Below are positions 1 to 15,290 of a stretch of DNA of 64,000 bases, one piece after another. Each line of letters opens with the position of its first letter. Within the stretch, counting starts at the first letter, position 1. The stretch is from Mycobacterium intracellulare ATCC 13950 (lineage in GTDB: Bacteria > Actinomycetota > Actinomycetes > Mycobacteriales > Mycobacteriaceae). The position numbers and the translations under genes are program-made. The stretch spans positions 5,270,001 to 5,334,000 of the forward strand of contig NC_016946.1 of NCBI RefSeq assembly GCF_000277125.1, read 5' to 3'. The notes below the pieces were generated by a model. That model saw nothing but the letters and a program-made list of their open reading frames with translations, did no database searches and was not told the DNA's origin.

Positions 1-719
1 CCGGTCACCGAGCAGGATTCGTGCGCGAGCCAACCCACCACGGGCGCAACGAGTTCCGGTCCCATCGGCGGGTAGGCGGAGGTGTCGATGCCGTCCGCCA
101 TGCGCGTCACCGCCGCCGGCACGATCACGTTGCAGCGGACGCCCTCGGCGGCGCCCTCGAGCGCGGCGACATTGGACAACCCGATGACGCCCGCCTTGGC
201 GGCCGCGTAGTTGGCCACGTCGCGGTTTCCGTACAGGCCGCCGATCGACGACGTCAGCACGATGCGGCCGTAGCCCGCCCCGCACATGAGCGGGAACGCC
301 GGGCGCACGACGTTGAACGCGCCGCGCAGGTGCACATCGAGCACGGCGTCGAAGTCCCCGTAGCTCATCTCCTTCAGCGAGCCGCGGCGGACGTTGCCGG
401 CGTTGTGCACCAGGATGTCGACGCGGCCATAGTGCTCGAGCGCGGTCGCGATGATCGCGTCGCCGCCCGCTGCGGTCGCGACCGAAGCGCTGCACGCGAC
501 GGCCTGTCCGCCGGCCGCGGTGATCTCGGCGACGACCCGCTCCGCCGGACCGGCGTCGACCCCTTCGCCGTCGAGGCCGCCGCCGACGTCGTTGACGACC
601 ACCTTCGCCCCACGCGCGGCCAGCAGCTGCGCGTAGGCGCGACCCAACCCGCGGCCGCCCCCGGTCACCACGGCGACGCGGCCGTCGAATCGTAGTTGCT
701 CTGCAGGGGTTTCGCTCAA
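1..719 (-). CDS. SDR family oxidoreductase (C-terminus cut by window edge)
   Basis: NAD(P)-dependent short-chain dehydrogenase, last gene of the leftward Rieske/BVMO operon. The reading frame starts with TTG at 719 (LSETPAEQLRFDGRVAVVTG), and this TTG overlaps the TGA of the monooxygenase gene in a TTGA arrangement, which implies translational coupling. It stays open to position 1. Seen: the Rossmann motif TGGGRGLG near residue 22, an HNAG motif, and the catalytic Ser plus YAAAK tetrad (residues around 170-185). About 239 residues are present; the usual length is 250-300, so little is missing. In context it probably oxidises a hydroxyl made by the operon's oxygenases or after ring opening; the substrate is unknown. 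Confidence 0.9.
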   Translation of the reverse strand, partial: MSETPAEQLRFDGRVAVVTGGGRGLGRAYAQLLAARGAKVVVNDVGGGLDGEGVDAGPAERVVAEITAAGGQAVACSASVATAAGGDAIIATALEHYGRVDILVHNAGNVRRGSLKEMSYGDFDAVLDVHLRGAFNVVRPAFPLMCGAGYGRIVLTSSIGGLYGNRDVANYAAAKAGVIGLSNVAALEGAAEGVRCNVIVPAAVTRMADGIDTSAYPPMGPELVAPVVGWLAHESCSVT

Positions 720-2563
720 GTGCCGAGCACCAACCCGTCCAAGTCGCCCTTGTCACGCCACACGCGCAGCAAGTCCTCGAACGCGTAAAAGCCGGGGCCG
801 TACGGTTCGCCCAGGTGTGACCGGATGCCCTCTCCCCCGCCGCCGCCTTCGTTGTTGTAGTAGCCGGGTGTGCACTGGGCGTCGAACGCCGAGTTGTCGA
901 CGGCGGTTTCCCGGATCGTCGCGCACCACTGCTCCTGGGCCGCCGCGCTGGGCTCCACGGTGGTCGCGCCCCGCTTCAACGCCTCGGCGATGATGTAGGC
1001 GATGTGCTCGCCCTGCAGCTCGTAGTTGGCGGCGATGTTGGCGGAGATGCCGACCTGGGTAAAACCGGTATAGAACTGGTTCGGGAAGCCGCGGCTGGTC
1101 ATCCCGTGCAGCGTCTTGTAGCCGTCGCGCCAGTGGTCGAACAGCGACAGCCCGTCGCGGCCCTCGATCGTCTCCATGGAATAGCGGCGGCTGATCTCGG
1201 TGGTGATCTCGAAGCCGCTGGCATAGATGATGCAGTCGACCTCGTACTCGACGCCGCCCGCCACCAGCCCCTTTTCGGTGATCCGTTCAACCCCTTTGGA
1301 ATCGGAGACGTCGACGAGGGTGACGTTGGGCCGGTTGAACATCGGCAGGTACTCGTCGTTGGACAGTGGCCGCTTGCACAGGAACCGGTAGTAGGGCTTG
1401 AGTGCCTCGGCGGTCTGCGCGTCCTCGACGATCACGTCGATGCGGCGGCGCAGCCGCTCCATCAGCTTGTAATCCTCTTCCTCGCGGATCGCCATGAACT
1501 GCTCGGGCGTCAGCGACGCGGGGTCGTCCAGCGCGAGCACCCGGGCCGCGGTGTTGCGCCCGAGTTCGGTCCAGAAGTCGCACACCAGGTCCGGCTGACC
1601 CAGCGCCATGCCCTCGAAGGTCCAGGAGTGGAAGTTGCGTTGCCGTTCCCGCTGCCAGCCCGGCCGCAACGATTTCACCCACTCCGGGTCGGTCGGCGCG
1701 TTGTTGCGTTCGTCGACGGTCGAAGGGGTGCGCTGAAAGACGTAGAGGTGCTGGGCGTCTCGGGCCAGGAACGGGACGATCTGGATCGCGGTGGCGCCGG
1801 TGCCGATGACGGCGACCCTCTTGTCGGCGAGCTTGTGCAGGTTGCCGCCGCTGTCCCCGCCGGTGTAGTCGTAGTCCCACCGCGACGAGTGGAACGCGTG
1901 GCCCTTGAAGTCCTTGATCCCAGGAATGCCGGGCAGTTTGGGCCGGTGGAAGGGGCCCGACGCCAGCACCACGAACCGGGCGCGGATGTCGTCGCCGCGG
2001 TTGGTGCCGATTCGCCAGCGCCTGATCTCCTCGTCCCAACGCAGGTCGCGCACCTGGGTGGAGAAGATCGCCGAATCGTAGAGGCCGAAATGCTTGCCGA
2101 TGTTGCGACAGTGCTGGTAAATCTCGGCGCCGTCGGCGAACTTCTTCGACGGCATGAAATCGAGCTCTTCGAGAAGCGGGATGTAGCAGTAGGATTCGTT
2201 GTCGCACTGGATGCCCGGGTACCGGTTCCAGTACCAGACACCGCCGAAGTCGCCGCCGAGTTCGATCACGCGTACGTCGTCGACGCCCGCCTTCTTCAGG
2301 TGCGCTGCCGACAGCAATCCACCGAAGCCGCCACCGAGGACCGCGACGTCGATGTCCTCCGAAATCGGGTCGCGTGGCGCGGCCGGGGTGTAGGGATCGA
2401 CCTCGTAGTACCCGGCGAAGTCGTCCTCCAGTTCGATGTACTGCTTGGAACCTTCCTTGCGCAGCCGCTTTTCGCGTTCCAGCCGGTACTTCTCGCGCAG
2501 CGCGGCGATGTCGACGTCGTCGGGCGTCTGGGTGGGCCCGCAGCTGTCCTGGTGCATGGTCAT
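716..2563 (-). CDS. Baeyer-Villiger monooxygenase (FAD/NADPH)
   Basis: Flavoprotein monooxygenase of 615 residues that would insert oxygen next to a ketone to give an ester or lactone. Seen: the first dinucleotide-binding motif GGGFGG (residues 77-82), the BVMO fingerprint FxGxxxHxxxW as FKGHAFHSSRW (219-229), and the second nucleotide-binding motif GTGATA near 254-259. The long N-terminal extension before the FAD motif (about 75 residues) resembles cyclohexanone/phenylacetone/steroid type I BVMOs. The start ATG overlaps the stop of the Rieske gene (ATGA), and its own stop overlaps the next SDR start, so the genes are coupled. Family is certain; the cyclic-ketone substrate is inferred from neighbours. 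Confidence 0.95.
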   Translation of the reverse strand: MTMHQDSCGPTQTPDDVDIAALREKYRLEREKRLRKEGSKQYIELEDDFAGYYEVDPYTPAAPRDPISEDIDVAVLGGGFGGLLSAAHLKKAGVDDVRVIELGGDFGGVWYWNRYPGIQCDNESYCYIPLLEELDFMPSKKFADGAEIYQHCRNIGKHFGLYDSAIFSTQVRDLRWDEEIRRWRIGTNRGDDIRARFVVLASGPFHRPKLPGIPGIKDFKGHAFHSSRWDYDYTGGDSGGNLHKLADKRVAVIGTGATAIQIVPFLARDAQHLYVFQRTPSTVDERNNAPTDPEWVKSLRPGWQRERQRNFHSWTFEGMALGQPDLVCDFWTELGRNTAARVLALDDPASLTPEQFMAIREEEDYKLMERLRRRIDVIVEDAQTAEALKPYYRFLCKRPLSNDEYLPMFNRPNVTLVDVSDSKGVERITEKGLVAGGVEYEVDCIIYASGFEITTEISRRYSMETIEGRDGLSLFDHWRDGYKTLHGMTSRGFPNQFYTGFTQVGISANIAANYELQGEHIAYIIAEALKRGATTVEPSAAAQEQWCATIRETAVDNSAFDAQCTPGYYNNEGGGGGEGIRSHLGEPYGPGFYAFEDLLRVWRDKGDLDGLVLGT

Positions 2564-3960
2564 GCCGATGGTGACTCCTTGCGTGACAGTTCCTGGGGCT
2601 CACCGGTACCCATGTATCTCGACAATTGGTAGTGCAGGTTGACGGTGCTGCGTTCGCGGTACGGGTTGGGCTTGGTGCCGGCGAAGCCGAGTGACTTCAT
2701 CCCCTGCTGCACGGCCGCCATGTTGGAGAAGTCCTGCGGTAGGACCGACCGCCAACGGGGATCCCCGACCGGGGTGTACTCCCACTCGGTCTGGGGCTCT
2801 TGGCCTTTCGGGTACAGCTCGAACACCGACACCTCGAAGATGCACTTGTCGGGGTTGTAGCTGGGGTGCGGTCGCGCGCCGTAACACAGCGCGCTGGTCA
2901 GGCCCTGTCCGATCTGGAAGTTCGGAAAGATCTGCCACGCGGTGCCGGCCTGCCCGAGGATGTCGGCGGGGATCGTCGGCCAGACGACGCCACGGGCCTC
3001 GTCGTCGCGGCGCGCCGATGCCAGCCAGTGCTCGAGGACCTTGTCGGCCGGCGTCCCCTCGGGCAACTCGTCGACGAGTCGCTTGGCCGCGTTCACCAGC
3101 GTCTGGGTGGTGGTGGCGTTGGTCTCCTCCATCGTGTACACCTGCATCTCCGCGGTGGACACCCGCGGGTCGGCGCCGATGCCGAGGCGGATCTTGGACT
3201 TGGTGGCCTCCATGTCCTCTGGGGCGTCGTAGCCGATGTTGCTGTGTCTGCCTTGGGCTTTCGCCCACCCCTTGAACTCGCCGAACTTGTTGAACTCGGG
3301 GTGCGTGGTGTAGACGTGGTAGGTCTCGTTGAACGCTTCCAGCGCGACCTTCCAGTTGCAGTCAAATTCAAGCCATTTGCGCCACTTGTAGCGCATGTTC
3401 TCACACCCGAACGGGTCGAGGATCTTCGCGGCGGGGAACAGGTAATCGGCCAGCGGCTCGCAGTCGGGGTCCATGTTGATCCACAACCAGCCGCCCCAGG
3501 TGTCGACCCGAACCGGTCGAAGGTGGGTGTTGTCCGGGGTGAGCGCTCCCTGCCAGTCCTGTTGCTCGCGGATGTGCGTGCACGCCCCGTCCAAGCCATA
3601 GGTCCAACCGTGAAAGCCGCAGACGAACGACTTTCGGGTGCGGGCACAGGCGTTCTTGGCGCCCTCGGGGGTGTCGATCAGCCGGCGGCCGCGGTGCATG
3701 CACACGTTGTGGTGCGCGTGAAATTCGTTGTGGCCGGTGCGCACCACGATGATCGAGTCGTCGAGGATGTCGTAGGTCAAATAGCTGCCCACCTCGGGTA
3801 ATTCCTCGACGCGGCCGACCTGCTGCCAGACCCGCCGCCACAGCCTGTCGCGCTCGGCGCGGGCGTAGTCCTCGGAGATGTATGCCTCGACGCCGATCGT
3901 CATCGGGGACGAGAGTTCCTCGGCCCCAGCGGAATTCGTGCCCTTGGCGAGATCGGTCAT
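2560..3960 (-). CDS. Rieske-type ring-hydroxylating oxygenase, alpha subunit
   Basis: Catalytic subunit of a Rieske non-haem iron oxygenase (466 residues), which hydroxylates rings or C-H bonds using electrons from a separate reductase. Seen: Rieske cluster ligands CMH (C87, H89) and CGFH (C114, H117), and the mononuclear iron motif NETYHVYTTH (H215, H220). The spacing between the two halves of the Rieske motif is 24 residues, longer than the usual 15-17. ATG 3960 is preferred over GTG 3963 because AGGAGG lies 5 nt before it. It overlaps the upstream SDR stop by 1 nt (TGATG). No beta subunit, ferredoxin or reductase is in the window, so electron donors must come from elsewhere. Confidence 0.94.
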   Translation of the reverse strand: MTDLAKGTNSAGAEELSSPMTIGVEAYISEDYARAERDRLWRRVWQQVGRVEELPEVGSYLTYDILDDSIIVVRTGHNEFHAHHNVCMHRGRRLIDTPEGAKNACARTRKSFVCGFHGWTYGLDGACTHIREQQDWQGALTPDNTHLRPVRVDTWGGWLWINMDPDCEPLADYLFPAAKILDPFGCENMRYKWRKWLEFDCNWKVALEAFNETYHVYTTHPEFNKFGEFKGWAKAQGRHSNIGYDAPEDMEATKSKIRLGIGADPRVSTAEMQVYTMEETNATTTQTLVNAAKRLVDELPEGTPADKVLEHWLASARRDDEARGVVWPTIPADILGQAGTAWQIFPNFQIGQGLTSALCYGARPHPSYNPDKCIFEVSVFELYPKGQEPQTEWEYTPVGDPRWRSVLPQDFSNMAAVQQGMKSLGFAGTKPNPYRERSTVNLHYQLSRYMGTGEPQELSRKESPSA

Positions 3961-4814
3961 CACATCCTCCTAATGGCCGCGCGGAAGGATTCGTCACGCA
4001 AGAAGAGCGACGTGTTGTCGGCGCCGAGATGGCTCCATTTGAGGTCCAGGCCGCCGTCGACCAACAGCGTCTGGCCGGTGATATAGCTCGACATCTCCGA
4101 GAGCAGAAACAGGATGGCGCCGGCCTGCTCCTCGGGCCGGCCCCGCCGTCCCATGGCGATCGCCTGCCGATCCCGTTCGGGGTCCTCGTCGACGTAGGTG
4201 CGCGAGGCCGCCGTCTCGGTGACGCCGGGCGCGACGGCGTTGACCCGGACTCCGGCCTGCGCCAACTCGAGGGCCATCGTGCGGGTCATCGCGGTGATCG
4301 CGGCCTTGGCGGTCCCGTAGGCGATGTGAAACGGCGCGGTGTTCATGCCGCTGATCGACGAGATCGACACGATGGACCCCGGCAGTCTTTGCGCGACGAG
4401 CTCGGCCGCCACGGCCTGGCTCATGAAGAACGCCGTCTCGAGGTTGTCGGCGAAGATCTTGCGCCAGTCGCCGCGGGTCACGCGCGTCGACGGCATCCAC
4501 GTCGACGGCTCGGCGCCGCCGGCGACATTGACCAGCCCGTACAAGCTTCCGTCGGCGCGGCGCGCGTGGTCGATCACCGCGGCGATGCCCTCGTCGGTGG
4601 ACGCGTCGGCCGCGACGGGCACCACGGCCAGGCCGTGGGCGGCCAGCGGGGCGATGTGCTCGTCGAGGTTTTCCTTCGATCGGCTCACCGCGATCACGGT
4701 GGCCCCGGCCCGGGCGGTCACGGCTGTGACGGTGGTGCCGATGCCGCCTCCGCCGGCGCCGGAGACCACCACGACGCGACCATCAAGCCTGAGGTGCCCG
4801 AATTGATCGTCCAT
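3960..4814 (-). CDS. SDR family oxidoreductase, first gene of leftward operon
   Basis: Short-chain dehydrogenase of about 284 residues. The cofactor loop is unusual (SGAGGGGIG instead of TGxxxGxG) and NNAG is replaced by VNVAGG; the catalytic Ser (SISSISG) and YGTAK are present, and it ends with the typical ITGQTLLVDGG. I chose ATG 4814 because a weak AGCAGG precedes it and the protein then begins MDDQFGHLRLDG like relatives; a longer start at 4862 would run into the promoter area. It leads the operon SDR, Rieske oxygenase, BVMO, SDR. Likely role: oxidation of the alcohol made by the Rieske enzyme to the ketone that the BVMO uses (inference). Confidence 0.93.
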   Translation of the reverse strand: MDDQFGHLRLDGRVVVVSGAGGGGIGTTVTAVTARAGATVIAVSRSKENLDEHIAPLAAHGLAVVPVAADASTDEGIAAVIDHARRADGSLYGLVNVAGGAEPSTWMPSTRVTRGDWRKIFADNLETAFFMSQAVAAELVAQRLPGSIVSISSISGMNTAPFHIAYGTAKAAITAMTRTMALELAQAGVRVNAVAPGVTETAASRTYVDEDPERDRQAIAMGRRGRPEEQAGAILFLLSEMSSYITGQTLLVDGGLDLKWSHLGADNTSLFLRDESFRAAIRRM

Positions 4815-4872
4815 GACCTGCTTTCGGCCGCCGACGGCGCCGTCCCGCGCCGGCCGCGACATTCGCTACCAG

Positions 4873-4886
4873 TTTGTCCGGACAAA
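4873..4886. promoter_or_regulatory. Perfect 14-bp palindrome, candidate GntR operator
   Basis: TTTGTCCGGACAAA is a perfect palindrome in the divergent promoter, about 60 bp before the leftward SDR start. GntR regulators of the HutC/UTRA type usually bind short GT-rich/AC-rich palindromes of this kind, and one is encoded at 6651. Binding is inferred. Confidence 0.6.
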
Positions 4887-4969
4887 ATATGGCGTTCTGT
4901 CCTTGGGAGAACACTATTCCGACCGGCGGACTTCGCTGTCAAGATCGAGCCGAGACACCGTCGTGGCTA

Positions 4970-4981
4970 TTGTCTGGACTA
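4970..4981. promoter_or_regulatory. Second, degenerate copy of the TTGTCC box
   Basis: TTGTCTGGACTA shares TTGTCyGGAC with the perfect palindrome about 97 bp upstream. It lies about 55 bp before the SMP-30 gene, so each divergent operon has its own box. Confidence 0.45.
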
Positions 4982-5034
4982 GGAGGAATTGATAACGTCC
5001 AGCCCAACCGGCTGACGGAAGGACCTCGGCGAGC

Positions 5035-6651
5035 ATGTCCATTTCAAGGGCCCTCTCAACGCAGCCCTCGCGGTACGCAGTCCCGGACGCGATCGACGTC
5101 GCTCCGGGCTGGGAACTCGACCGGTTGACCGCGCCGAGCCGGCTGTTCGGGGCCAACGGGCTGCGCACCGGCCCCGACGGCCGCATCTACATCGCGCAGG
5201 TGACCGGCAGTCAGATCAGCGCGCTGGACCACCGCACCGGGGAACTGGTGACCGCCAGCCCCAAGGGCGGCGACATCGTGGCACCCGACGACGTCGCGTT
5301 CGATCCCCGCGGCAACCTGTACGCGACCGAGGTGATGGACGGCCGGGTCAGCGTGCGCGAGACCAACGGCCGGACGCGGGTGCTGCGCGACGACGTGCCG
5401 TCGGCCAACGGCATCACGTTCCATGACGGCCGGTTGTTCATCGGTGAATGCCGGGAGGGTGGGCGGCTGCTGGAATTCGACCTGTCGGGCGGCCCGCCAC
5501 GGGTGCTCTTGGAGAACGTGCCCTCGCCGAACGCGATGGAGGTCGGTCCCGACGGCCTGCTGTACTTCCCGGTGATGGGCGCCAACGAGATCTGGCGCGT
5601 CGACCCCGACGGCGGCGAGCCACACTGTGTCGCAAAAGATCTCGGCGTGCCCGACTCGGTGAAGTTCGACGCCCGGGGCTACCTCGTCTCCACCCAGGTG
5701 GCCAGCGGGCAGGTGCTGCGCATCGATCCCCGCAGCGGCGAACGTCGCCTGCTCGCCCAGCTGAATCCGGGGCTGGACAACTGCACCTTCGTCGGCGACC
5801 GGCTGTTCGTCTCCAACTTCAGTGGCGAGATCACCGAGATCTCGCCCGACGGCGCAACGACATCGGTGTTGCCGGGCGGACTCAACTGGCCGCTGGACCT
5901 GGCCGTGGGCCAGGACGGGCAGCTCTACATTGCCGACGGCACGTACTTCTATGTCGCCCTGCCCGACGGGTCCCTGCAGACCGCGGGAATGTTGTTCAGC
6001 CCCGGCTATCCCGGGTTCCTGCGCGGCCTCGCCGCAGGCGCGCCCGGCGAGTTCGTCGTCACCACCTCTGGCGGCCAGGTCGCCCGCTACCGGCCCGAAG
6101 CCGGCGAAACCGAGGTGCTGGCCGACGGTTTCGACCAGCTCTACGGTGTCGCGGTGACCCCAGGCGGTGTGGTGGTTGCGGAGTTGGGGACCGGGCGGGT
6201 GTTGTCGCTGCGGTCCGGAGGTGTCGACGTGCTGGCGACCGATCTGCGCGAGCCTGTCGGGGTCGCGATCGACGCCGACGGAGCCCCGCTGGTGGCGGAG
6301 GCGGGCGCGGGCAGGGTGGTCCGGCCGGCCGGGTCGCGGGCCGACACCGTCGTGGCCGATCTGCAACGGCCGCAGGGCATTCTGGTCCGCGACGGTGTGC
6401 TCTACGTGGTCGATGCCGGCGCCAAGGAACTGATCGCCTTCGACCTCGCCGGCCACGGTCGCCGGACGATCGCGTCCGGGCTGCCGGTCGGTCCCCCGCC
6501 GGGCGTGACTGCCAAGCCACTGCGCGGCATGCCGCCGTTTTCGGGGCCACAGGGTCCGTTCGCCGGCATCACGGCCGCGGCCGATGGGACGCTGTACATC
6601 TCGGCCGACGGCGAGGGCAGCGTGCTCGCCCTGCGCCCCACGGGCCACTGA
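5035..6651 (+). CDS. SMP-30/gluconolactonase-like double beta-propeller protein
   Basis: A 538-residue protein of the SMP-30/gluconolactonase/NHL class, whose members are Ca- or Zn-dependent lactonases or sugar-ester hydrolases. Seen: repeated blade motifs such as GPDGRIYIA, DPRGNLYAT, GPDGLLYFP and GQDGQLYIAD, with Asn/Asp-rich loops (PSANGITF, SPNAMEV, PDSVKF) that match metal-ligand positions in the first half. The length is nearly twice the usual 300: residues 15-320 look like the SMP-30 propeller and 330-530 like a second NHL-type propeller. No signal peptide is visible. A GGAAGGAC precedes ATG 5035. In this operon a lactonase would open the lactone made by the BVMO (inference). Its stop overlaps the next start (TGATG). 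Confidence 0.88.
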   Translation: MSISRALSTQPSRYAVPDAIDVAPGWELDRLTAPSRLFGANGLRTGPDGRIYIAQVTGSQISALDHRTGELVTASPKGGDIVAPDDVAFDPRGNLYATEVMDGRVSVRETNGRTRVLRDDVPSANGITFHDGRLFIGECREGGRLLEFDLSGGPPRVLLENVPSPNAMEVGPDGLLYFPVMGANEIWRVDPDGGEPHCVAKDLGVPDSVKFDARGYLVSTQVASGQVLRIDPRSGERRLLAQLNPGLDNCTFVGDRLFVSNFSGEITEISPDGATTSVLPGGLNWPLDLAVGQDGQLYIADGTYFYVALPDGSLQTAGMLFSPGYPGFLRGLAAGAPGEFVVTTSGGQVARYRPEAGETEVLADGFDQLYGVAVTPGGVVVAELGTGRVLSLRSGGVDVLATDLREPVGVAIDADGAPLVAEAGAGRVVRPAGSRADTVVADLQRPQGILVRDGVLYVVDAGAKELIAFDLAGHGRRTIASGLPVGPPPGVTAKPLRGMPPFSGPQGPFAGITAAADGTLYISADGEGSVLALRPTGH

Positions 6652-7400
6652 TGTCCCAGGCCATCGCGGGCGACCACCGCTACCTGCAGATCGCCCGCAC
6701 GCTGCGCAAGGAGATCGTCGACGGGGTCTACCCGGTGGGGTCGCAGCTGCCGACCGAGCACCAACTGTGTGAGCGCTTCGCGGTGAGCCGCTACACCGTT
6801 CGCGAAGCGTTGCGCCGGCTCCGCGAGGACAACCTGGTCGCCTCCCGGCCGCGGGCGGGCACCCGGGTGGTACCCCGCCCGGCGTCGAGTTCCTATGCCC
6901 AGGACGCGATGTCGATCGACGACCTGCTCGCGTTCGCCGCCGGCGCCCAGCTGACCATCGAATCCAACGCGATGGTGACGATCGACGACGACCTCGCCGC
7001 CCGGACCGGACTCGAGCCCGGCACCCAGTGGCTCTCGGTGCGTGGCTACCGGCAGGCCGACGGCGCGTCGGTGCCGATGTGCCGGACGGAGTACTACATC
7101 AGCCGCAGTTTCGCCGCGGTGGGCAGGCTGCTGCAACGCCATGCCGGCCCGATCTTCCCGTTGATCGAGGATCTTTTCGGCGTGAGCGTCGCCCAGTTGC
7201 ACCAGGAGATCGCGGCCGTCCTGCTCTCCCCGGAACTGGCCGACGGCCTCGGCGTGGAAGCGGGAACGGCCGCACTGCAGATGCGGCGCACCTACACGAC
7301 CTCCGACGGCGAGGTGGCCCAGGTGACGATCAACACCCACCTGTCGTCGAGGTTTCGGTATGCGATGACCATGCGTCGCGTCACCGGTCAGGCCGGCTGA
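6651..7400 (+). CDS. GntR-family regulator with UTRA domain
   Basis: Transcription factor of 249 residues: an N-terminal winged helix (residues 10-75, with TEHQLCERFAVSRYTVREAL as recognition helices) and a C-terminal UTRA ligand-binding domain (about 95-240), i.e. the HutC subfamily. Such proteins usually repress their own catabolic operon until an intermediate of the pathway binds the UTRA domain. ATG 6651 overlaps the previous stop by one base. It sits inside the rightward catabolic operon and probably acts on the two TTGTCC-type boxes at 4873 and 4970. The ligand is unknown. Confidence 0.94.
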   Translation: MSQAIAGDHRYLQIARTLRKEIVDGVYPVGSQLPTEHQLCERFAVSRYTVREALRRLREDNLVASRPRAGTRVVPRPASSSYAQDAMSIDDLLAFAAGAQLTIESNAMVTIDDDLAARTGLEPGTQWLSVRGYRQADGASVPMCRTEYYISRSFAAVGRLLQRHAGPIFPLIEDLFGVSVAQLHQEIAAVLLSPELADGLGVEAGTAALQMRRTYTTSDGEVAQVTINTHLSSRFRYAMTMRRVTGQAG

Positions 7401-7401
7401 G

Positions 7402-9024
7402 TTGCTCGCCCGGGCCCGCCACGACGCGGCGCATGCGTCAGAGGCCTACCGGCGCGGACTGTGGGTGCACACCACGCTCGCCGATTCCCTGCGCGCGGCC
7501 GCGCAGACGTCGCCGCACCGAACAGTGTTGGTGGACAAGGATGTTCGGCTGGACTGCGCCACACTGCACGCGCAGGCCGGCGCGCTGGCCGCGGCGATGC
7601 TGGCGCGCATGCCCACCAACAGCGTCGTGTCCTTCATGCTGCCGAACTGGCATGAGACCGCCGTCATCTATCTGGCCGCGACGCTCGCCGGCATGGTGGT
7701 GAACCCGATCCTTCCGTCGCTGCGCGACCACGACCTGCGCTTCATTCTCGAAGACGCCGGCACCGCAATGCTATTCGCCCCGCACCGATTCGGCGGCCAC
7801 GACTACGCGGCGATGCTCGAACGGGTGACGGCCGCGATGGGCAACGCGCCCGAGGTCGTGGTGTTGCGCGAAACCGGGCACGCCGGTCCGCACACCCCCT
7901 ATCCGGACCTGCTCGACCATGCGCCGGACCCCGCGACGCTTCCGGCGCTCGATCCCGACGCCGCGCGGATGATCCTGTACACCTCGGGGACCACCAGCCG
8001 CCCGAAAGGCGTCCTGCACACCCACAATTCGCTGCACGCCCTGATCCGCCAGCTCCGCGAGCACTGGAGCATCGAGCCCGGCGACACGTTCCTGGTCCCG
8101 TCGCCGGTCGCCCATATCGGCGGCTCGATCTATGCCTTCGAATGCCCGCTGCTGCTGGGCACCACCGCGGTGCTGATGGACCGGTGGGATCCGGCGCAGG
8201 CGGTCGCGCTGATGAACGCCGAACGGTGCACCCACATGGCGGGGGCCACGCCGTTTCTGCAGCAGCTGCTGTCCGCCGCCGAAGGCCTCGGCACCCGCCT
8301 GCCCGACCTGAAGGTGTTCATCTGCGGCGGCGCGTCGGTATCGCCGTCGCTGATCCGGAGCGCCGCAGACTATTTCGACCGCGCGGTGGTCACCCGGGTG
8401 TACGGCTGCACCGAGGTTCCCGTCGCGACCGTCGGCGCGCCCCGGCCCGACGAAGCCGACAGCGCCGCGGATACCGACGGCAGGGCCGGCATCGCCGAGA
8501 TCAAGCTCGTCCCCCACGGTGCCGCACCCGCGGGTGACGGAGAAATCTACCTGCGCGGGCCGCAGATGCTACTGGGCTACCGCCATCCCGAAGACGATTC
8601 CTTCGATGCCGATGGGTTTTTCCGCACCGGGGATCTCGGGCGCTGGGTCTCGACCGGTTCCGGAGACCGGTACCTCGTCGTGACGGGACGGGCCAAGGAC
8701 GTCATCATCCGCAGCGGCGAGAACATCTCGGCCAAGGAGGTCGAGGACCTGCTCGCCGACCATCCCGGCATCGCCGAGATCGCTGTGGTCGGGCTGCCCG
8801 ACGAGCGCACCGGGGAGCGGGCCTGCGCGGTGATCGTCCCCGCGGGCGCGCAGCGCCCGGACGTCGCGAGTTTGCTTGCGCTGCTGGTGAGCAAGGGCGT
8901 CGCCAAATTCAAGGCGCCCGAACAGGTCGTGATCTGGGATGCCCTGCCGAAGAACGACGCTGGCAAGGTGCTCAAGCATCGGGTCCGGGCGGCGCTCACG
9001 CGGGTGGAGACTAAGGATGGGTGA
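7402..9024 (+). CDS. AMP-forming acyl-CoA synthetase
   Basis: ANL-superfamily ligase (540 residues) that would activate a carboxylic acid through an acyl-adenylate and transfer it to CoA. Seen: P-loop [12 protein letters not shown] (around residue 193), FRTGDLGRW, the hinge region [14 protein letters not shown], and the C-terminal catalytic lysine motif [14 protein letters not shown] 7402 is one base after the GntR stop; the next in-frame candidates lie too far inside. The gene belongs to the GntR-controlled rightward operon and overlaps the following SDR. The acid is most likely a ring-opening product of the pathway; FadD-like chain length cannot be told. Confidence 0.93.
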
Positions 9025-9799
9025 GATGCAGGTCGCAATCGTCACGGGCGCAAGCAGCGGCATCGGCCTGGGCTGCGCCACGAAACTCGCCGAGATGGGC
9101 ATGGCGGTCCTGGGCACGGGCCGCGACCAGGACCGGCTGGCCGAACTGCACACGGCCATCGGCGATCCGGATCGCGTTGCCACACTTGCCGTCGACCTGA
9201 CCGACGACGACGCGCCGCGACGCATCGTGGACCTCGCCGTGCAGCGATGGGGCCACATCGACTTCCTGATCAACAACGCCGGAGTCGGCAGCCCCAAGCC
9301 GCTGCACGAAACCGACGACGAAACCCTGGACTACTTCCTGGGTTTGATGCTACGGGCACCGTTTCGGCTCGCGCGTGACGTGCTGCCCCACATGGGACCC
9401 GGCTCGGCGATCATCAACGTGACATCGACGTTCGCGGTCGTCGGCGGCCTGCGGGGCGGGGCCTACTCCGCGGCCAAGGGCGGGCTGACCGCGCTGACCA
9501 CCCACATCGCCTGCCAGTACGGCGCGTCCGGCATCCGTTGCAACGCCGTCGCGCCGGGCGTCACGGTCACACCGATGGTCGAGAAGCGCTTGCAGGACGA
9601 GCGATTCCGCAAGATCAACACCGAGATGACGCCGCACCCGCGGTTGGGCCGCGTCGACGACATCGCCAGCACGGTCGCGTTCTTGTGCTCGCCGGGCGGA
9701 AGTTTCATCAACGGCCAGACGATCGTGGTCGACGGCGGATGGAGTTCGACGAAGTATCTGTCGGAGTTCGCCTTGTCCTCGCGGTGGACGGAGCGGTGA
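9017..9799 (+). CDS. SDR family oxidoreductase
   Basis: Classical SDR of 260 residues with [12 protein letters not shown], catalytic YSAAK and a terminal [14 protein letters not shown] 9017 has GGAG seven bases upstream and overlaps the synthetase by 8 bp; ATG 9026 with AAGG nine bases upstream is an equally good start (three residues shorter). It lies between two acyl-CoA synthetases, so it may act on a hydroxyacyl intermediate, as 3-hydroxyacyl-CoA-type SDRs do, but this is inferred from position only. Confidence 0.93.
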
Positions 9800-11313
9800 A
9801 CCTGTTCGCGATGCTCGATCAGGCCGCGAGCCGACACCCCCACCGCGGCGCGATGTATCACGGCACCCGGCGCCTGTACACCTGGATCGAGCTGCGCGAC
9901 AGGGCCTTACGCCTGGCCGCGTCGATCCGAAAACAGCACGCCGCCGGCGCCCGCCTCGCGATCGCGACCCACAACCGTCCCGAGATCATCGAGTTGATGT
10001 TCGCGATCTGGGCCGCCGAGTGCGTCGTCGTCCCCATCAACTACAAGCTGCATCCGCGCGAGATGGCCGAGATCCTCGACGACGCGGGCGCGGCGCGGGT
10101 GTTCGCCTCCACGGCGATTGCCGGCGAACTGGCGCCGATCACCACGACACCGATGGAAACCTTTGAGTCGCAGGACTACTCGCGGCGGGTCACCGTCGCC
10201 CCGTCGGCGAAGCCGCGCACCGATCCGTCGGCGCTCGCCTGGCTGTTCTACACCAGCGGGACCACCGGCCGATCGAAGGGCGCGATGCTGTCGCACCGCA
10301 ACCTGACCGCGATGACCGTGGCCCACCTCGCCGACATCGACGACCCGGACGAACGGTGCAGCCTCCTGCACGCGGCGCCCATGTCGCACGGCTCGGGGCT
10401 CTACGTCCTGCCGTACGTGCTGCGCGCCGCCCGCCAGGTGGTGCCCGCCTCGGGCGCATTCGACCCCGACGAGTTCCTCGATCTGTGCGAGCATCACCCC
10501 GGCGGCAGCGCGTTTCTCGCCCCGACGATGGTGCAGCGCCTGGTGGGCACGGGCCGCGCCCGCCCGGCCAACCTGAAGTCGATCGTCTACGGCGGCGGCC
10601 CGATGTATGTCGAAAGCCTGCGCAAGGCGATTGCGGCGTTCGGCCCGATCTTCGCCCAGATCTACGGGCAGGGCGAGTCACCGATGACCATCACCGGGCT
10701 GCGCCGCGCCGACCACGAATCCGGCGACGACGCAATCCTGGGATCGGTCGGCTATGCGCGGTCCGGGATGGACGTCGGGGTGCTGCGCGCCGGCGGCGAC
10801 CCGGCGCCCGTCGATGAGATCGGCGAGATCGTCTGCCGCGGCGACGCGGTCATGTCCGGCTACTGGCGCAACCCCGATGCCACCCGCGCCACGCTCAAAG
10901 AGGGCTGGCTGTACACCGGCGACATGGGCTCGTTCGACGCGCGCGGTTTCCTCACGCTGCGCGATCGGTCGAAGGACGTCGTCATCAGCGGCGGCAGCAA
11001 CATCTACCCGCGCGAGGTCGAGGAGGTCCTGCTCGAGCACCCCGCGGTCGCGGAGGCGTGCGTGGTCGGCACCCCCGACGCCGAGTGGGGCGAGGTGGTG
11101 GTCGCATTCGTCGTCGGCACAGGCGATCCCGTCGACGCCGCGGCGCTCGACGCGCACCTGCTGACGCGCATCGCCCGGTTCAAACGTCCCAAGCGCTACG
11201 AATTCGTCGACGAGCTACCAAAAAACAGCTACGGCAAGGTGCTCAAGCGGGAACTGCGGGCCCGCCTGGCGCCGCTGCGGGAATGTCATGAGACATCAGG
11301 GAGGTCGCAATGA
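9796..11313 (+). CDS. AMP-forming acyl-CoA synthetase
   Basis: Second ANL-superfamily ligase of the operon, 505 residues from GTG 9796, which overlaps the SDR stop in a GTGA junction and has GGACGGAG upstream. A longer reading frame runs upstream inside the SDR but has no signal there. Seen: [45 protein letters not shown] and [13 protein letters not shown]. The two synthetases of this operon are clearly different proteins, so the pathway may release two acids or activate one acid at two stages. Its stop overlaps the ADH start (ATGA). Confidence 0.93.
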
Positions 11314-12470
11314 AGTGTCGCGCCGCTGTGATCCGCGGGGTCGGCCAGGACTGGGAGATCCGCGAGATCGAGCTGGATCCGCCCCGCGGCGGTGAAGTCC
11401 TGGTGCGCATGGCCGTTGCCGGGATCTGCCACTCCGACGATCATCTGTTCACCGGCGATGTGGTGCCGACCCCCGAGGCGCTGGCCGCGAGCGGCCAGCC
11501 GGCGCCGGACTGGTTCCCGCTGCTCGGCGGTCACGAGGGAGCCGGCGTCGTTGAAGAAATCGGGCCAGGCGTGACCTCGGTGCGTCCGGGAGACCACGTG
11601 GCGCTCTCCTTCATCCCCGCGTGCGGCAGCTGCCGGTTCTGTGTCAACGGCCAGAGCTACATCTGCGACATCGGTGCGAGCCTGTTCGTGCGGGAGATGC
11701 CCACCGACGGCACCTGCCGGCGCCACCTCGGTGACGAAAACCTGTTGGCCTACGGGCAACTCGGCACGTTCGCCGAATACGCGGTGCTATCGGAACGCTC
11801 CGTCATCAAGATCGACGACGCGATCCCGTTCCATGCCGCCTCGCTGGTGTCGTGCGGGGTGAGCACCGGCTGGGGGTCCGCGACGATCTCGGCGGGCACC
11901 GAACCCGGCGACACCGTCGTCGTCATCGGCGCGGGCGGCGTCGGGATGAACGCCCTGCAGGGCGCGCGCGCCGTGGGCGCCAAATACGTCGTCGCGGTGG
12001 ATCCTGTTGAGTCCAAGCGCGATTCGGCCAAGGTCTTCGGCGCCACGCACACCGCCGCCTCCGCCGAGGACGCGATACCTCTGGTCAGGGAGATCACCGC
12101 CGGCCTGATGGCCGACCGCGTCGTCGTCTGCCCCGGCGTGGTGCGCGTGGACCTGCTTCCGTTGGCGATGGCGCTGCTTCGCAAAGGCGGGATCTGCGTG
12201 CTCACCGGCATCACCCCGTTCACCGAACCCCCGGTCCCGTTGGTCCTGCAGGAGATGACGCTGTCGGCCAAACAGCTCAGGGGCGCGCTCTACGGCGGCA
12301 TGAATCCGCGCACCAGCGTGCCGATGCTGCTGTCGTTGTATCAGGCGGGCGCGGTGAAACTCGACGAGTTGGTCACCCGCCACTACCGGCTCGACCAGAT
12401 CAACGAGGCGTTCGTGGATCTGCGCGAGGGCCGCAACATTCGCGGTGTCATCGATTTCGCGGGTGCGTGA
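11310..12470 (+). CDS. Zinc-dependent alcohol dehydrogenase, NDMA-dependent (mycofactocin-type) class
   Basis: Medium-chain dehydrogenase of 386 residues. Seen: catalytic zinc site GICHSDDH and GGHEGAG, structural zinc cysteines CGSCRFCVNGQSYIC, and the cofactor motif GAGGVG (around residue 208). Length and motifs fit the actinobacterial NDMA-dependent ADH family, whose members hold their nicotinamide tightly and pass electrons to mycofactocin. ATGA overlap couples it to the upstream synthetase. As last gene of the GntR operon it probably oxidises an alcohol freed by lactone opening. Assignment to the NDMA subclass is likely, not proven. Confidence 0.92.
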   Translation: MKCRAAVIRGVGQDWEIREIELDPPRGGEVLVRMAVAGICHSDDHLFTGDVVPTPEALAASGQPAPDWFPLLGGHEGAGVVEEIGPGVTSVRPGDHVALSFIPACGSCRFCVNGQSYICDIGASLFVREMPTDGTCRRHLGDENLLAYGQLGTFAEYAVLSERSVIKIDDAIPFHAASLVSCGVSTGWGSATISAGTEPGDTVVVIGAGGVGMNALQGARAVGAKYVVAVDPVESKRDSAKVFGATHTAASAEDAIPLVREITAGLMADRVVVCPGVVRVDLLPLAMALLRKGGICVLTGITPFTEPPVPLVLQEMTLSAKQLRGALYGGMNPRTSVPMLLSLYQAGAVKLDELVTRHYRLDQINEAFVDLREGRNIRGVIDFAGA

Positions 12471-13758: not shown

Positions 13759-14493
13759 TTAGCTCTTCGGTGGCCGGATGTCGTTGGGGTTGTTCGGGTC
13801 GGGGTCACCGAACCAGCGTGAGGGCTCGTGCTCGCCGTACGCGTCGTGCCAGTCCCACCACTCGTAGGGAGCGGTCTGCGGATAGCCCTCCGGCGAATCC
13901 TCCCAGGTTTCCTGGCGTCCGAGCGCGGTCATGTCCAGGAAGCTCCAGGTGGTCCCCAGCGCCTCGTCGCCGCGGTTGTTGATGAAGTAGGTGCGAAACA
14001 CCCGATCGCCGTCACGGATGAAGGCGTTGGTGCCGTGCCATTCGTCCACGCCGAAATCCGCGTCGAAGCCGTCGGTGATCGTGTACCAGGGCATCTTCCA
14101 GTCCATCCGCTTCTTCAGGCGCGCGATGTCGGCCTGCGGCGCGCGTGAGGCGAACACCAGCGTGGTGTCGCGGGCGTTCAGGTGGGCCAGGTTGCCGACG
14201 TGGTCGGCCATCATCGAGCAGCCCCGGCAACCGCGCTCGGGCCAGCCGTCGATGTCGGGCCCGTAGAACGCGCGGTAGACGATGAGTTGGCGCCTGCCGC
14301 CGAACAGGCCCGCCAGGTTGACCGTGCCCTCGGGTCCCTCGAACCGGTAGTCGGAGTCCACCTCCGTCCAGGGCATCCGGCGCCGCCGGGCCGCGAGCGC
14401 GTCACGGGCCCGGGTGAGCTTCTTCTCCTCTTCCAGCAGCTCTCGATGCGCGCTCGCCCACTCCTGGGCCGTCACGATCGGGGGTGTGTTCAT
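13759..14493 (-). CDS. DUF899 family thioredoxin-like protein
   Basis: A 244-residue member of the DUF899 family, which has a thioredoxin-like fold without a proven function. Seen: ARDALAARRRRMPWTEVDSDYRFEG at the start (family hallmark MPW), QLIVYRAFYGP, the paired cysteines RGCRGCSMMADHVGN, and WHGTNAF near the end. ATG 14493 is 29 bp after the upstream SDR, with which it likely forms an operon. Divergent from an ECF sigma factor, a context consistent with stress-linked control. Confidence 0.9.
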   Translation of the reverse strand: MNTPPIVTAQEWASAHRELLEEEKKLTRARDALAARRRRMPWTEVDSDYRFEGPEGTVNLAGLFGGRRQLIVYRAFYGPDIDGWPERGCRGCSMMADHVGNLAHLNARDTTLVFASRAPQADIARLKKRMDWKMPWYTITDGFDADFGVDEWHGTNAFIRDGDRVFRTYFINNRGDEALGTTWSFLDMTALGRQETWEDSPEGYPQTAPYEWWDWHDAYGEHEPSRWFGDPDPNNPNDIRPPKS

Positions 14494-14522
14494 CGTTGTG
14501 CGCCTTTCGAACTCGGGTGTTT

Positions 14523-15290
14523 TCAGGTCAGCGGCGACAGGCCGGCGGAGGTGAGCAGGTAGGCGTCGTGGTCCGGGCCGGCGGTGGCGATCTCGAGCAC
14601 CGACTTGCCCACCTGTTCGGCGGTGAGCGCGGGCCCGGCGGCCTGTAAGAAGGTGTCGACGTCGACGCCTTGGCGCTCGGCGTAGGCGGCGACGGCGGCC
14701 GCGCCCAGGCCGGTGGCCGGGGTCAACCGCGGCAGCACGGCGGTGAAGCCGATCCCGAGCCCGGCGCGTTGCGATTCGAGGGCGGCATAGCCGGCGAGGA
14801 ACCGTACGGTCGCCTTGGCGCCCGCGTAGCCACCGGACAGCGGTGATCCGGCCAGGGCGGCACCGCTGGACATCACGATCACCGAGCTGCCCGGCGCCAG
14901 CGGGCGCCGCAGCGCGTCACGAACCCAGTGAAACGCCTGCGCGACGTCGGAGTTCCAGTTGTCGCTGAACGACTCCCAGGTCTGATCCTGCAGCGGCGCC
15001 ATCCGCGGCGCCGCCCCGGCGCACAGCACCAGGGTGCGCGGCCGGTGCCGGTCGATGAGCCGGCCGGGAGTCGCCGGATCGGCGGCGTCGGCCACCACCG
15101 GGGTGAAGGTGTCGCCTAGTTGGGCGCGCACCTCCTCGAGCTGCGATCGGGTGCGCGCGACGCCGACGACCTCGGCGCCGGCGGTCGCCAACGCGGTGGC
15201 GATCGCGCGGCCGAAGCCGCGGCCGGCCCCGGTCACGATCGCGGTGCTGCCGGCGAACCCGTCGGCGCCGGGGTTTGGGGTCTGGTTCAT
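14523..15290 (-). CDS. SDR family oxidoreductase
   Basis: SDR of 255 residues with TGAGRGFG and YAGAK, but NNAG is changed to LCAGAAP and the C-terminal VDGG is absent, so it belongs to a divergent group. It is the first gene of an SDR-DUF899 operon and reads away from a sigma-factor gene across a 156-bp gap that holds a large inverted repeat. Substrate unknown; co-regulation with the sigma factor is an inference. Confidence 0.9.
   Translation of the reverse strand: MNQTPNPGADGFAGSTAIVTGAGRGFGRAIATALATAGAEVVGVARTRSQLEEVRAQLGDTFTPVVADAADPATPGRLIDRHRPRTLVLCAGAAPRMAPLQDQTWESFSDNWNSDVAQAFHWVRDALRRPLAPGSSVIVMSSGAALAGSPLSGGYAGAKATVRFLAGYAALESQRAGLGIGFTAVLPRLTPATGLGAAAVAAYAERQGVDVDTFLQAAGPALTAEQVGKSVLEIATAGPDHDAYLLTSAGLSPLT

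Follow-up and report, generated by a model that had tools for sequence, protein, structure and literature searches.

A GntR-associated locus of two divergent mycobacterial operons with a candidate ring-opening pathway and a mosaic Baeyer-Villiger monooxygenase history

Related systems and the genes of the locus

In the chn-type pathway, cyclohexanol and cyclohexanone are broken down in the order alcohol, ketone, lactone, ring opening and acid. In this study, we have analysed a locus of two divergent operons that fits this order, in a window of 64,000 nucleotides (the whole stretch of DNA, G000:C1:5270001-5334000) from Mycobacterium intracellulare ATCC 13950, whose genome is a single contig of 5.4 Mb. 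Based on our results, we think it on balance probable that this is a catabolic locus, controlled by a GntR regulator with a UTRA domain, that would open a ring compound larger than cyclohexanone by the route proposed below. The mycobacterial cluster departs from chn in having a Rieske start, added CoA chemistry and a thiamine-diphosphate (ThDP) enzyme, and in having a beta-propeller in place of the alpha/beta-hydrolase of chn. Its Baeyer-Villiger monooxygenase (BVMO) is also nearer to 5mq6, its best match in the PDB (420 bits), than to cyclohexanone monooxygenases (196-237 bits).

Other described systems share parts of this content. In the lyase-HCL cluster of Actinomycetospora for 2-hydroxyisobutyrate, 2-hydroxyisobutyryl-CoA lyase activity has been demonstrated, and GntR, a ThDP-dependent 2-hydroxyacyl-CoA lyase, a CoA ligase and alcohol/aldehyde dehydrogenases are found in one induced cluster, although the substrate is a small branched acid and the available part of its description names no Rieske enzyme, BVMO or propeller (PMC7176365). 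The mycobacterial ThDP enzyme is likened to this lyase by cluster content. In the AntQ-1 anthraquinone cluster of Sphingobium, a BVMO and a hydrolase are proposed to open the ring of a polycyclic ketone; as the available part of that report has it, the authors judged the main BVMO to be probably of type II (luciferase-like), and we liken the two systems by function (PMC9836352). By sequence, PtlE-type BVMOs and PockeMO are nearest to the mycobacterial BVMO, which falls below the PtlE equivalog cut-off and has a catabolic-looking setting. A search of the open-access literature (titles and the starts of abstracts) returned no description of this cluster, and the letters of its operator matched only unrelated Drosophila work. 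Two points go beyond the initial annotation of the window: the paired operators, together with what becomes of them when the cluster is split, and the apparent exchange of the BVMO.

The left operon, on the minus strand, continues past window base 1: after the short-chain dehydrogenase (SDR) gene SDR1, three more co-directional genes follow in L011, a stretch of the same genome reaching left of the window (L011 position 18001 is window position 1). The features are as follows, in window coordinates unless L011 is named; ALDH and ADH are aldehyde and alcohol dehydrogenase.

L011:13370-14809, minus: ALDH, co-directional
L011:14829-16541, minus: ThDP enzyme, co-directional
L011:16538-17758, minus: CaiB-type CoA transferase, co-directional
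1..719, minus: SDR1, cut by the window edge (full gene window -249..719, L011:17751-18719; Pfam adh_short 2.5e-42 for the window part, 3-719; TTG start overlapping the BVMO stop)
716..2563, minus: type I BVMO, PtlE/PockeMO-like, in what appears to be an exchanged slot (Pfam FMO-like/Pyr_redox)
2560..3963, minus: Rieske non-haem iron oxygenase alpha subunit (PF00355 56.9 bits and PF00848, Ring_hydroxyl_A, 58.9 bits, over cut-off)
3960..4814, minus: SDR4 (Pfam adh_short_C2 3.5e-53; ATG at 4814 chosen from ortholog starts, the open frame extending to 4862)
4874..4885, no strand: operator site 1, perfect palindrome TTGTCCGGACAA, in the putative left-operon leader, recognised by conservation across loci
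4908..4943, minus: putative left-operon promoter, conserved blocks TTGAC (-35-like) and GGAATAGTGTTCT (-10-like AATAGT) on the minus strand
4968..4981, no strand: operator site 2, TATTGTCTGGACTA, 96 bp from site 1
5035..6651, plus: double six-bladed beta-propeller, SMP-30/SGL-like and NHL/Vgb-like, candidate lactonase (Pfam SGL, Vgb_lyase, NHL)
6651..7400, plus: GntR regulator with UTRA sensor domain, HutC/UTRA type (PF00392 73.6 bits, PF07702 60.3 bits, over cut-off)
7402..9024, plus: ligase 7, AMP-forming CoA ligase-like (PF00501 5e-67, PF13193)
9017..9799, plus: SDR8 (PF13561 1.4e-58; ATG start 9017)
9796..11313, plus: ligase 9, AMP-forming CoA ligase-like (PF00501 3.7e-65)
11310..12470, plus: NDMA-dependent (mycofactocin-type) zinc ADH (Pfam ADH_N and ADH_zinc_N; TIGR03989 492.3)

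The starts of GntR (6651), SDR8 (9017) and SDR4 (4814) are revised ones, and the domain scans of SDR4, GntR and SDR8 were run on slightly longer stretches (to 4862, from 6648 and from 9020). All ten genes to which the initial annotation had given named domains were confirmed by Pfam, and the stop/start overlaps it described were all found (TTGA at BVMO/SDR, ATGA at Rieske/BVMO and ligase/ADH, TGATG at propeller/GntR, GTGA at SDR/ligase). The catabolic logic of its ring-opening chain (Rieske, SDR, BVMO, propeller, ligases) fits, but its claim of a complete pathway is not supported: this was read from a left operon cut at the window edge, so that the ALDH, ThDP enzyme and CoA transferase escaped notice, and other genomes add TauD, an ABC transporter and probable acyl-CoA dehydrogenases.

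Conservation of the locus and its operator pair

We compared 80 loci with the closest Rieske relatives, retained from 421 in the GTDB collection; 73 of them are full-length (at least 20.3 kb each, with a 10-kb flank). The closest relatives of the Rieske protein are in Mycobacterium sp. WUMAC-067 (98%) and then several at 95%, including M. colombiense. A gene was called present at 60% identity or more, and a gene counted as absent may lie beyond the flank. All nine core genes (CaiB, SDR1, BVMO, Rieske, SDR4, propeller, GntR, ligase 7 and SDR8) lie on the expected strands in 66 of the 73 full-length loci, the remaining seven being split Mycolicibacter loci. A comparison of synteny across mycobacteria, which the initial annotation had suggested, thus finds the two operons conserved together, and a chance neighbourhood can be rejected on this count and on a co-directional array in Rhodococcus. 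The non-core genes are less constant (ThDP enzyme in 61, ligase 9 in 51, ALDH in 48 and ADH in 36). Like described NDMA-dependent, mycofactocin-type enzymes, the ADH passes the NCBI model TIGR03989 (492.3 against a cut-off of 440), in a genome that encodes MftC (673 against 265), so the type first assigned to it stands. Its membership in the conserved unit does not: it is on the expected strand in 25 and directly behind ligase 9 in 18 of the 73 loci, and is an accessory, peripheral neighbour.

Two wider samples were scanned, 148 genomes of the window's genus (for Rieske and GntR orthologs and the exact operator) and 396 genomes drawn from the phylum (for Rieske). Rieske and GntR orthologs occur in an identical set of 113 of the 148 genomes (15 unlisted negatives being assigned by elimination). 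A strong Rieske match was found in 10 of the 396, nine from the window's genus and one from another (G196, 64%), where propeller, SDR4, Rieske, BVMO, SDR1, ThDP and ALDH genes follow one another in one direction. The same co-directional array is carried by a plasmid of Rhodococcus sp. USK13, beside genes annotated as ABC transporter, ligase, CoA transferase, acyl-CoA dehydrogenase and TauD. Other arrangements occur among mycobacteria: M. branderi has a second copy of the cluster on a plasmid, M. celatum and M. kyorinense have ThDP-ALDH relocated to the front, and the fast grower M. rhodesiae (L059) has three acyl-CoA-dehydrogenase-like reading frames (by translation, not family search) between CaiB and ThDP. 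In the seven Mycolicibacter records, the cluster occupies two places. One has SDR4-Rieske-BVMO-SDR1-ALDH, and the other has propeller-GntR-ligases, from which CaiB diverges, with ThDP lying beyond.

Site 2, with T or C allowed at one position, is present in 74 of the 80 loci; the six without it are four short contigs and two rearranged loci (L070, L089). In these 74 loci, the two sites are 96 bp apart in 47, 97 in 12, 95 in nine, 98 in five and 94 in one, and site 1 is exact in 63, with one mismatch in 10 and two in one. The columns beside the sites are mostly far less informative, the columns being anchored on the sites, which biases them in the sites' favour. The core pattern TTGTCYGGACWA occurs at two places only in the 5.4-Mb genome, both of them operator sites, and a control pattern at none (G000). 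The exact 12-mer, counted as present anywhere in a genome with position checked for some sites only, was found in 86 of the 148 genus genomes, that is in 85 of 113 with GntR and 1 of 35 without (Fisher P 2.7e-15, uncorrected for kinship). In eight loci, allowing up to two mismatches, the motif gave 16 sites against 4, 2 and 2 for three control motifs. A chance palindrome is rejected on these grounds. The strongest natural test of joint control is provided by the split Mycolicibacter clusters, where both places have an operator pair, spaced 97-98 bp at the Rieske half and 96-97 bp at the propeller-GntR half (L125-L131; one and two mismatches to the 12-mer).

Because synteny is kept, the operator pair is conserved and each split half retains a pair, the two operons appear to form one regulatory unit, as first supposed, and very probably both are controlled by the internal GntR. 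This regulator would bind the two TTGTCyGGACwA operators, about 96 bp apart and possibly with a DNA loop, and would act as a repressor rather than an activator of both promoters until an inducer arrives. Between the sites, 69 anchored sequences share the conserved columns AGAACActATTCC and GTCAAGg; the blocks at 4908..4943 would form the left-operon promoter, and the -35 of the right promoter may share bases with site 2.

Several observations speak against so simple a scheme. The exact 12-mer is missing from 28 of the 113 GntR-bearing genomes, a reversed control pattern is present in 11 of the 148, and exact sites lie off the cluster in G087, G066 and G002 (leaving out second sites of G123 and G132), which we read as chance. 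Before the new first gene of M. celatum and M. kyorinense there is only one site, with one mismatch, and one exact site precedes the plasmid operon of M. branderi; none of these is a pair. In the non-mycobacterial arrays (G196 and Rhodococcus, L103 and L109), no site was found at up to two mismatches; the Rhodococcus array has a gene for an FCD-domain protein instead.

Even so, in about three quarters of the sampled genus genomes (113 of 148), operator, regulator and candidate pathway together make up a regulon at one locus that can be tested, and identifying its inducer would show on what non-tuberculous mycobacteria feed in soil and water.

Operator-like sites were also seen elsewhere. On the M. 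branderi plasmid, two precede a cytochrome P450/TauD pair (L113:8061-8221), a possible extra member of the regulon. In G102, a second propeller-like gene (by translation; L164:6130-7560) has its own pair at 7811 and 7922, 111 bp apart. An exact operator-like 12-mer in G066 (L163:4130), beside a short GntR-like gene and phosphonate-metabolism-like genes, is probably chance or the site of another regulator.

The candidate pathway

In the order of reactions that we infer, a ring compound larger than cyclohexanone, most likely polycyclic or terpenoid-like, would be hydroxylated by the Rieske oxygenase and oxidised to a ketone by an SDR; the BVMO would turn the ketone into a lactone, which the propeller would hydrolyse. 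A polycyclic or terpenoid ketone is our best guess for the substrate. The acid may then be activated with CoA by the two ligases and the CaiB-type transferase, and oxidised by SDR1, perhaps a 3-hydroxyacyl-CoA dehydrogenase. The ThDP enzyme and ALDH may remove a one-carbon unit or branch point in an alpha-oxidation-like step, from 2-hydroxyacyl-CoA to an aldehyde and formyl-CoA.

For the first step, the NETYH segment of the Rieske protein aligns with MECYH of carnitine monooxygenase (6y9c/6y8j), and the residue at the putative bridging position is Glu in place of Asp. It falls below the glycine-betaine monooxygenase equivalog NF058607 (116.2 bits, cut-off 670), and its scores against named NCBI models, on the question of an aromatic-ring dioxygenase, are far under their cut-offs.

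Some features of the enzymes sit uneasily with this pathway. The gene translations and Pfam results of the cluster include no recognisable reductase partner of the Rieske enzyme, no model search having been made for one. The ThDP enzyme is about as near to acetolactate synthase as to 2-hydroxyacyl-CoA lyase or oxalyl-CoA decarboxylase (194.7 bits for the catabolic acetolactate synthase against 181 for oxalyl-CoA decarboxylase/2-hydroxyacyl-CoA lyase-synthase). The propeller passes the SMP-30/SGL model PF08450 (57.6, cut-off 26.3) and also the ScyD/ScyE model NF033206 (135.9, cut-off 80), to our knowledge not a lactonase family. The metal site of SMP-30-type lactonases is Glu/Asn/Asn/Asp; the invariant residues of the propeller are N41, D85, N125, N166, D207 and N249, in an ambiguous register, with no Glu read at the first SMP-30 position.

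The step from lactone to acid has the most serious competitor, in which the propeller is a binding or scaffold protein and the lactone opens spontaneously or by another hydrolase. An AlphaFold2 model (pLDDT 87.5) supports the double propeller first described for this protein. The top Foldseek rows are the tandem propellers of LRP6 (about 530 columns, TM 0.36, rmsd about 20), while single six-bladed propellers superpose on residues 35-272 and others include the second half. The fold resembles lactonases, but non-enzymatic propellers head both fold lists, so that fold alone is no proof of a lactonase. Residues 364-492 best match the designed Pizza propellers, and PknD is among the matches. With the ScyD/ScyE score and metal ligands that are not assignable with certainty, these observations make a scaffold possible, if the less probable role; the SMP-30/SGL match is consistent with the candidate lactonase.

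A second competitor concerns the ThDP enzyme, which might be another ring-cleaving enzyme, of the cyclic 1,2-dione hydrolase type, splitting a dione made by the Rieske enzyme and SDR; ALDH would oxidise the aldehyde end and the BVMO open another ring or side chain. One of its relatives with a solved structure is cyclohexane-1,2-dione hydrolase (2pgn, 1.2e-34), and the ThDP and ALDH genes adjoin in the window genome, Rhodococcus and M. branderi. We consider this improbable, as the match is some 18-22 orders of magnitude weaker than those to oxalyl-CoA decarboxylase and acetolactate synthase, and an overlapping CaiB gene suggests a CoA substrate. In the best 25 of its 52 matched NCBI models, the ThDP enzyme is always under the cut-off; it scores 163.9 (600) for NF058623, 208.7 (557) for NF006721 and 188.8 (739.4) for TIGR03254, models of 2-hydroxyacyl-CoA lyase/oxalyl-CoA decarboxylase, with cut-offs in brackets. 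The CaiB-type transferase likewise scores 180.1 bits for formyl-CoA transferase (Frc, TIGR03253), below 504.2.

Further genes were noticed around these enzymes. About 7 kb past the ALDH gene, L011:2456-6040 encodes an adenylation-carrier-reductase protein of 1194 residues that by eye resembles a carboxylic acid reductase. In Mycolicibacter, a reductase-like gene lies nearby (L056:16623-17636), a possible partner of the Rieske enzyme, and a TauD-like gene (by eye) lies between BVMO and SDR1 (L056:13197-14027); relatives of the latter protein are found elsewhere in the window genome (52% and 46%). Second Rieske genes of about 52% identity occur at L105:9789-11186 (with a GntR match at 13949-14671), L165:6505-7896 and L106:9348-10736; those of G117 and G102 are accompanied by a GntR relative (60% and 54%), which suggests a sister system. 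The three paralogous loci gave no hint on the substrate.

Probable exchange and identity of the BVMO

When the proteins of the cluster are compared pair by pair across species, the identities of all but BVMO and ThDP co-vary (r 0.60-0.91); the correlations to the other genes are 0.27-0.81 for ThDP and 0.05-0.35 for BVMO. Reading frames of BVMO and Rieske were both usable in 68 rows (78 and 71 rows had one or the other), and here the BVMOs form two groups of 27 and 41 at 80% single linkage. Rieske proteins are at least 93% identical in 206 pairs, and in 98 of these the BVMOs are at most 80% identical. Six variant-B loci were compared with the window in 200-base bins. In each of them, nucleotide identity is about 84-94% in the Rieske gene, drops to 58-86% within the BVMO gene and recovers to 80-93% in SDR1, whereas a variant-A control (L017) maintains 84-94% across the BVMO. 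The breaks fall near the boundaries of the BVMO gene, to within about 200 bases.

The variant changes 12 times on the Rieske tree and once on the BVMO tree (68 rows). A further tree, built with FastTree from seven other proteins of the cluster, covers the 65 rows that have six or all seven of them. With the variant defined here by 80% identity to the window, slightly unlike the single-linkage grouping, it changes 14 times on this tree, and 12 of these changes are forced by well-supported branches. Since shuffled labels give about 21.6 changes, the variant is partly clustered but has switched many times. Even close relatives can differ in their variant, as L044 does from L014, L017 and L018, which are all named M. 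colombiense and are separate species in the collection, and the M. branderi plasmid BVMO, 78% identical to variant A and 68-74% to variant-B representatives, is a further form.

As none of the 79 loci with a long BVMO match has two copies, the simplest reading is repeated replacement of this one gene. An old duplication with one copy lost per lineage, and no exchange, would also leave two variants in one slot with many switches, but it would need 12-14 losses with the survivor in the same place each time, and no locus with both copies was found; we regard it as improbable. Repeated replacement within a fixed operon would be a natural experiment on the evolution of ring-cleaving specificity, and would supply paired BVMO variants for biocatalysis. 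More speculatively, and as a whole rather unlikely, GntR, a looped operator pair, Rieske, SDRs, propeller and ligases could be the fixed chassis of a modular pathway opening alicyclic or terpenoid rings, hosting one of two old BVMO variants as a specificity module traded gene-precisely between species, with ring opening coupled to the alpha-oxidation-like step and CaiB recycling the formyl-CoA of a ThDP lyase.

The hallmark of type I BVMOs is two Rossmann motifs with the fingerprint FxGxxxHxxxW[PD], and the string FKGHAFHSSRWD in the translation of 716..2563 (minus strand), with the Pfam matches and several BVMOs of solved structure among the best hits, identifies the enzyme as type I. A cyclohexanone monooxygenase identity is rejected, being a poorer match than 5mq6 (PockeMO). 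The closest relatives presumably act on bulkier ketones, and the cyclohexanol/cyclohexanone model invoked by the initial annotation is not specifically supported.

PtlE acts in pentalenolactone biosynthesis, and one could propose that the cluster tailors or detoxifies a terpenoid (in biosynthesis or biotransformation) instead of feeding on a ring compound. PtlE is the closest NCBI model of the BVMO (NF045818, 686.8 bits), which is also 48% identical to a record annotated as neopentalenolactone/pentalenolactone D synthase. We find this quite unlikely: the score is below the equivalog cut-off of 1100, the translated genes around the locus include no recognisable terpene synthase (with no model search for one), and the array of a relative has an annotated acyl-CoA dehydrogenase, CoA transferase and importer alongside. 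Least credible of all is that the two operons stand side by side and are regulated separately. In favour of this, they lie apart in Mycolicibacter; against it, each half there has an operator pair, the genomes with GntR are also those with the Rieske gene (113 of 148), and the sites are strongly conserved.

Finally, two observations concern the surroundings of the BVMO gene. On a plasmid of Sphingobium sp. WTD-1 (L110:14989-20359), Rieske and BVMO relatives adjoin, the BVMO match spanning 66% of the query, with an IS256 transposase just beyond. Eight loci have a gap of about 1.2-1.3 kb between Rieske and BVMO, and in the two examined (L072:11404-12576 and L088:11395-12579) it holds a gene for a luciferase-like monooxygenase (LLM-type by eye).

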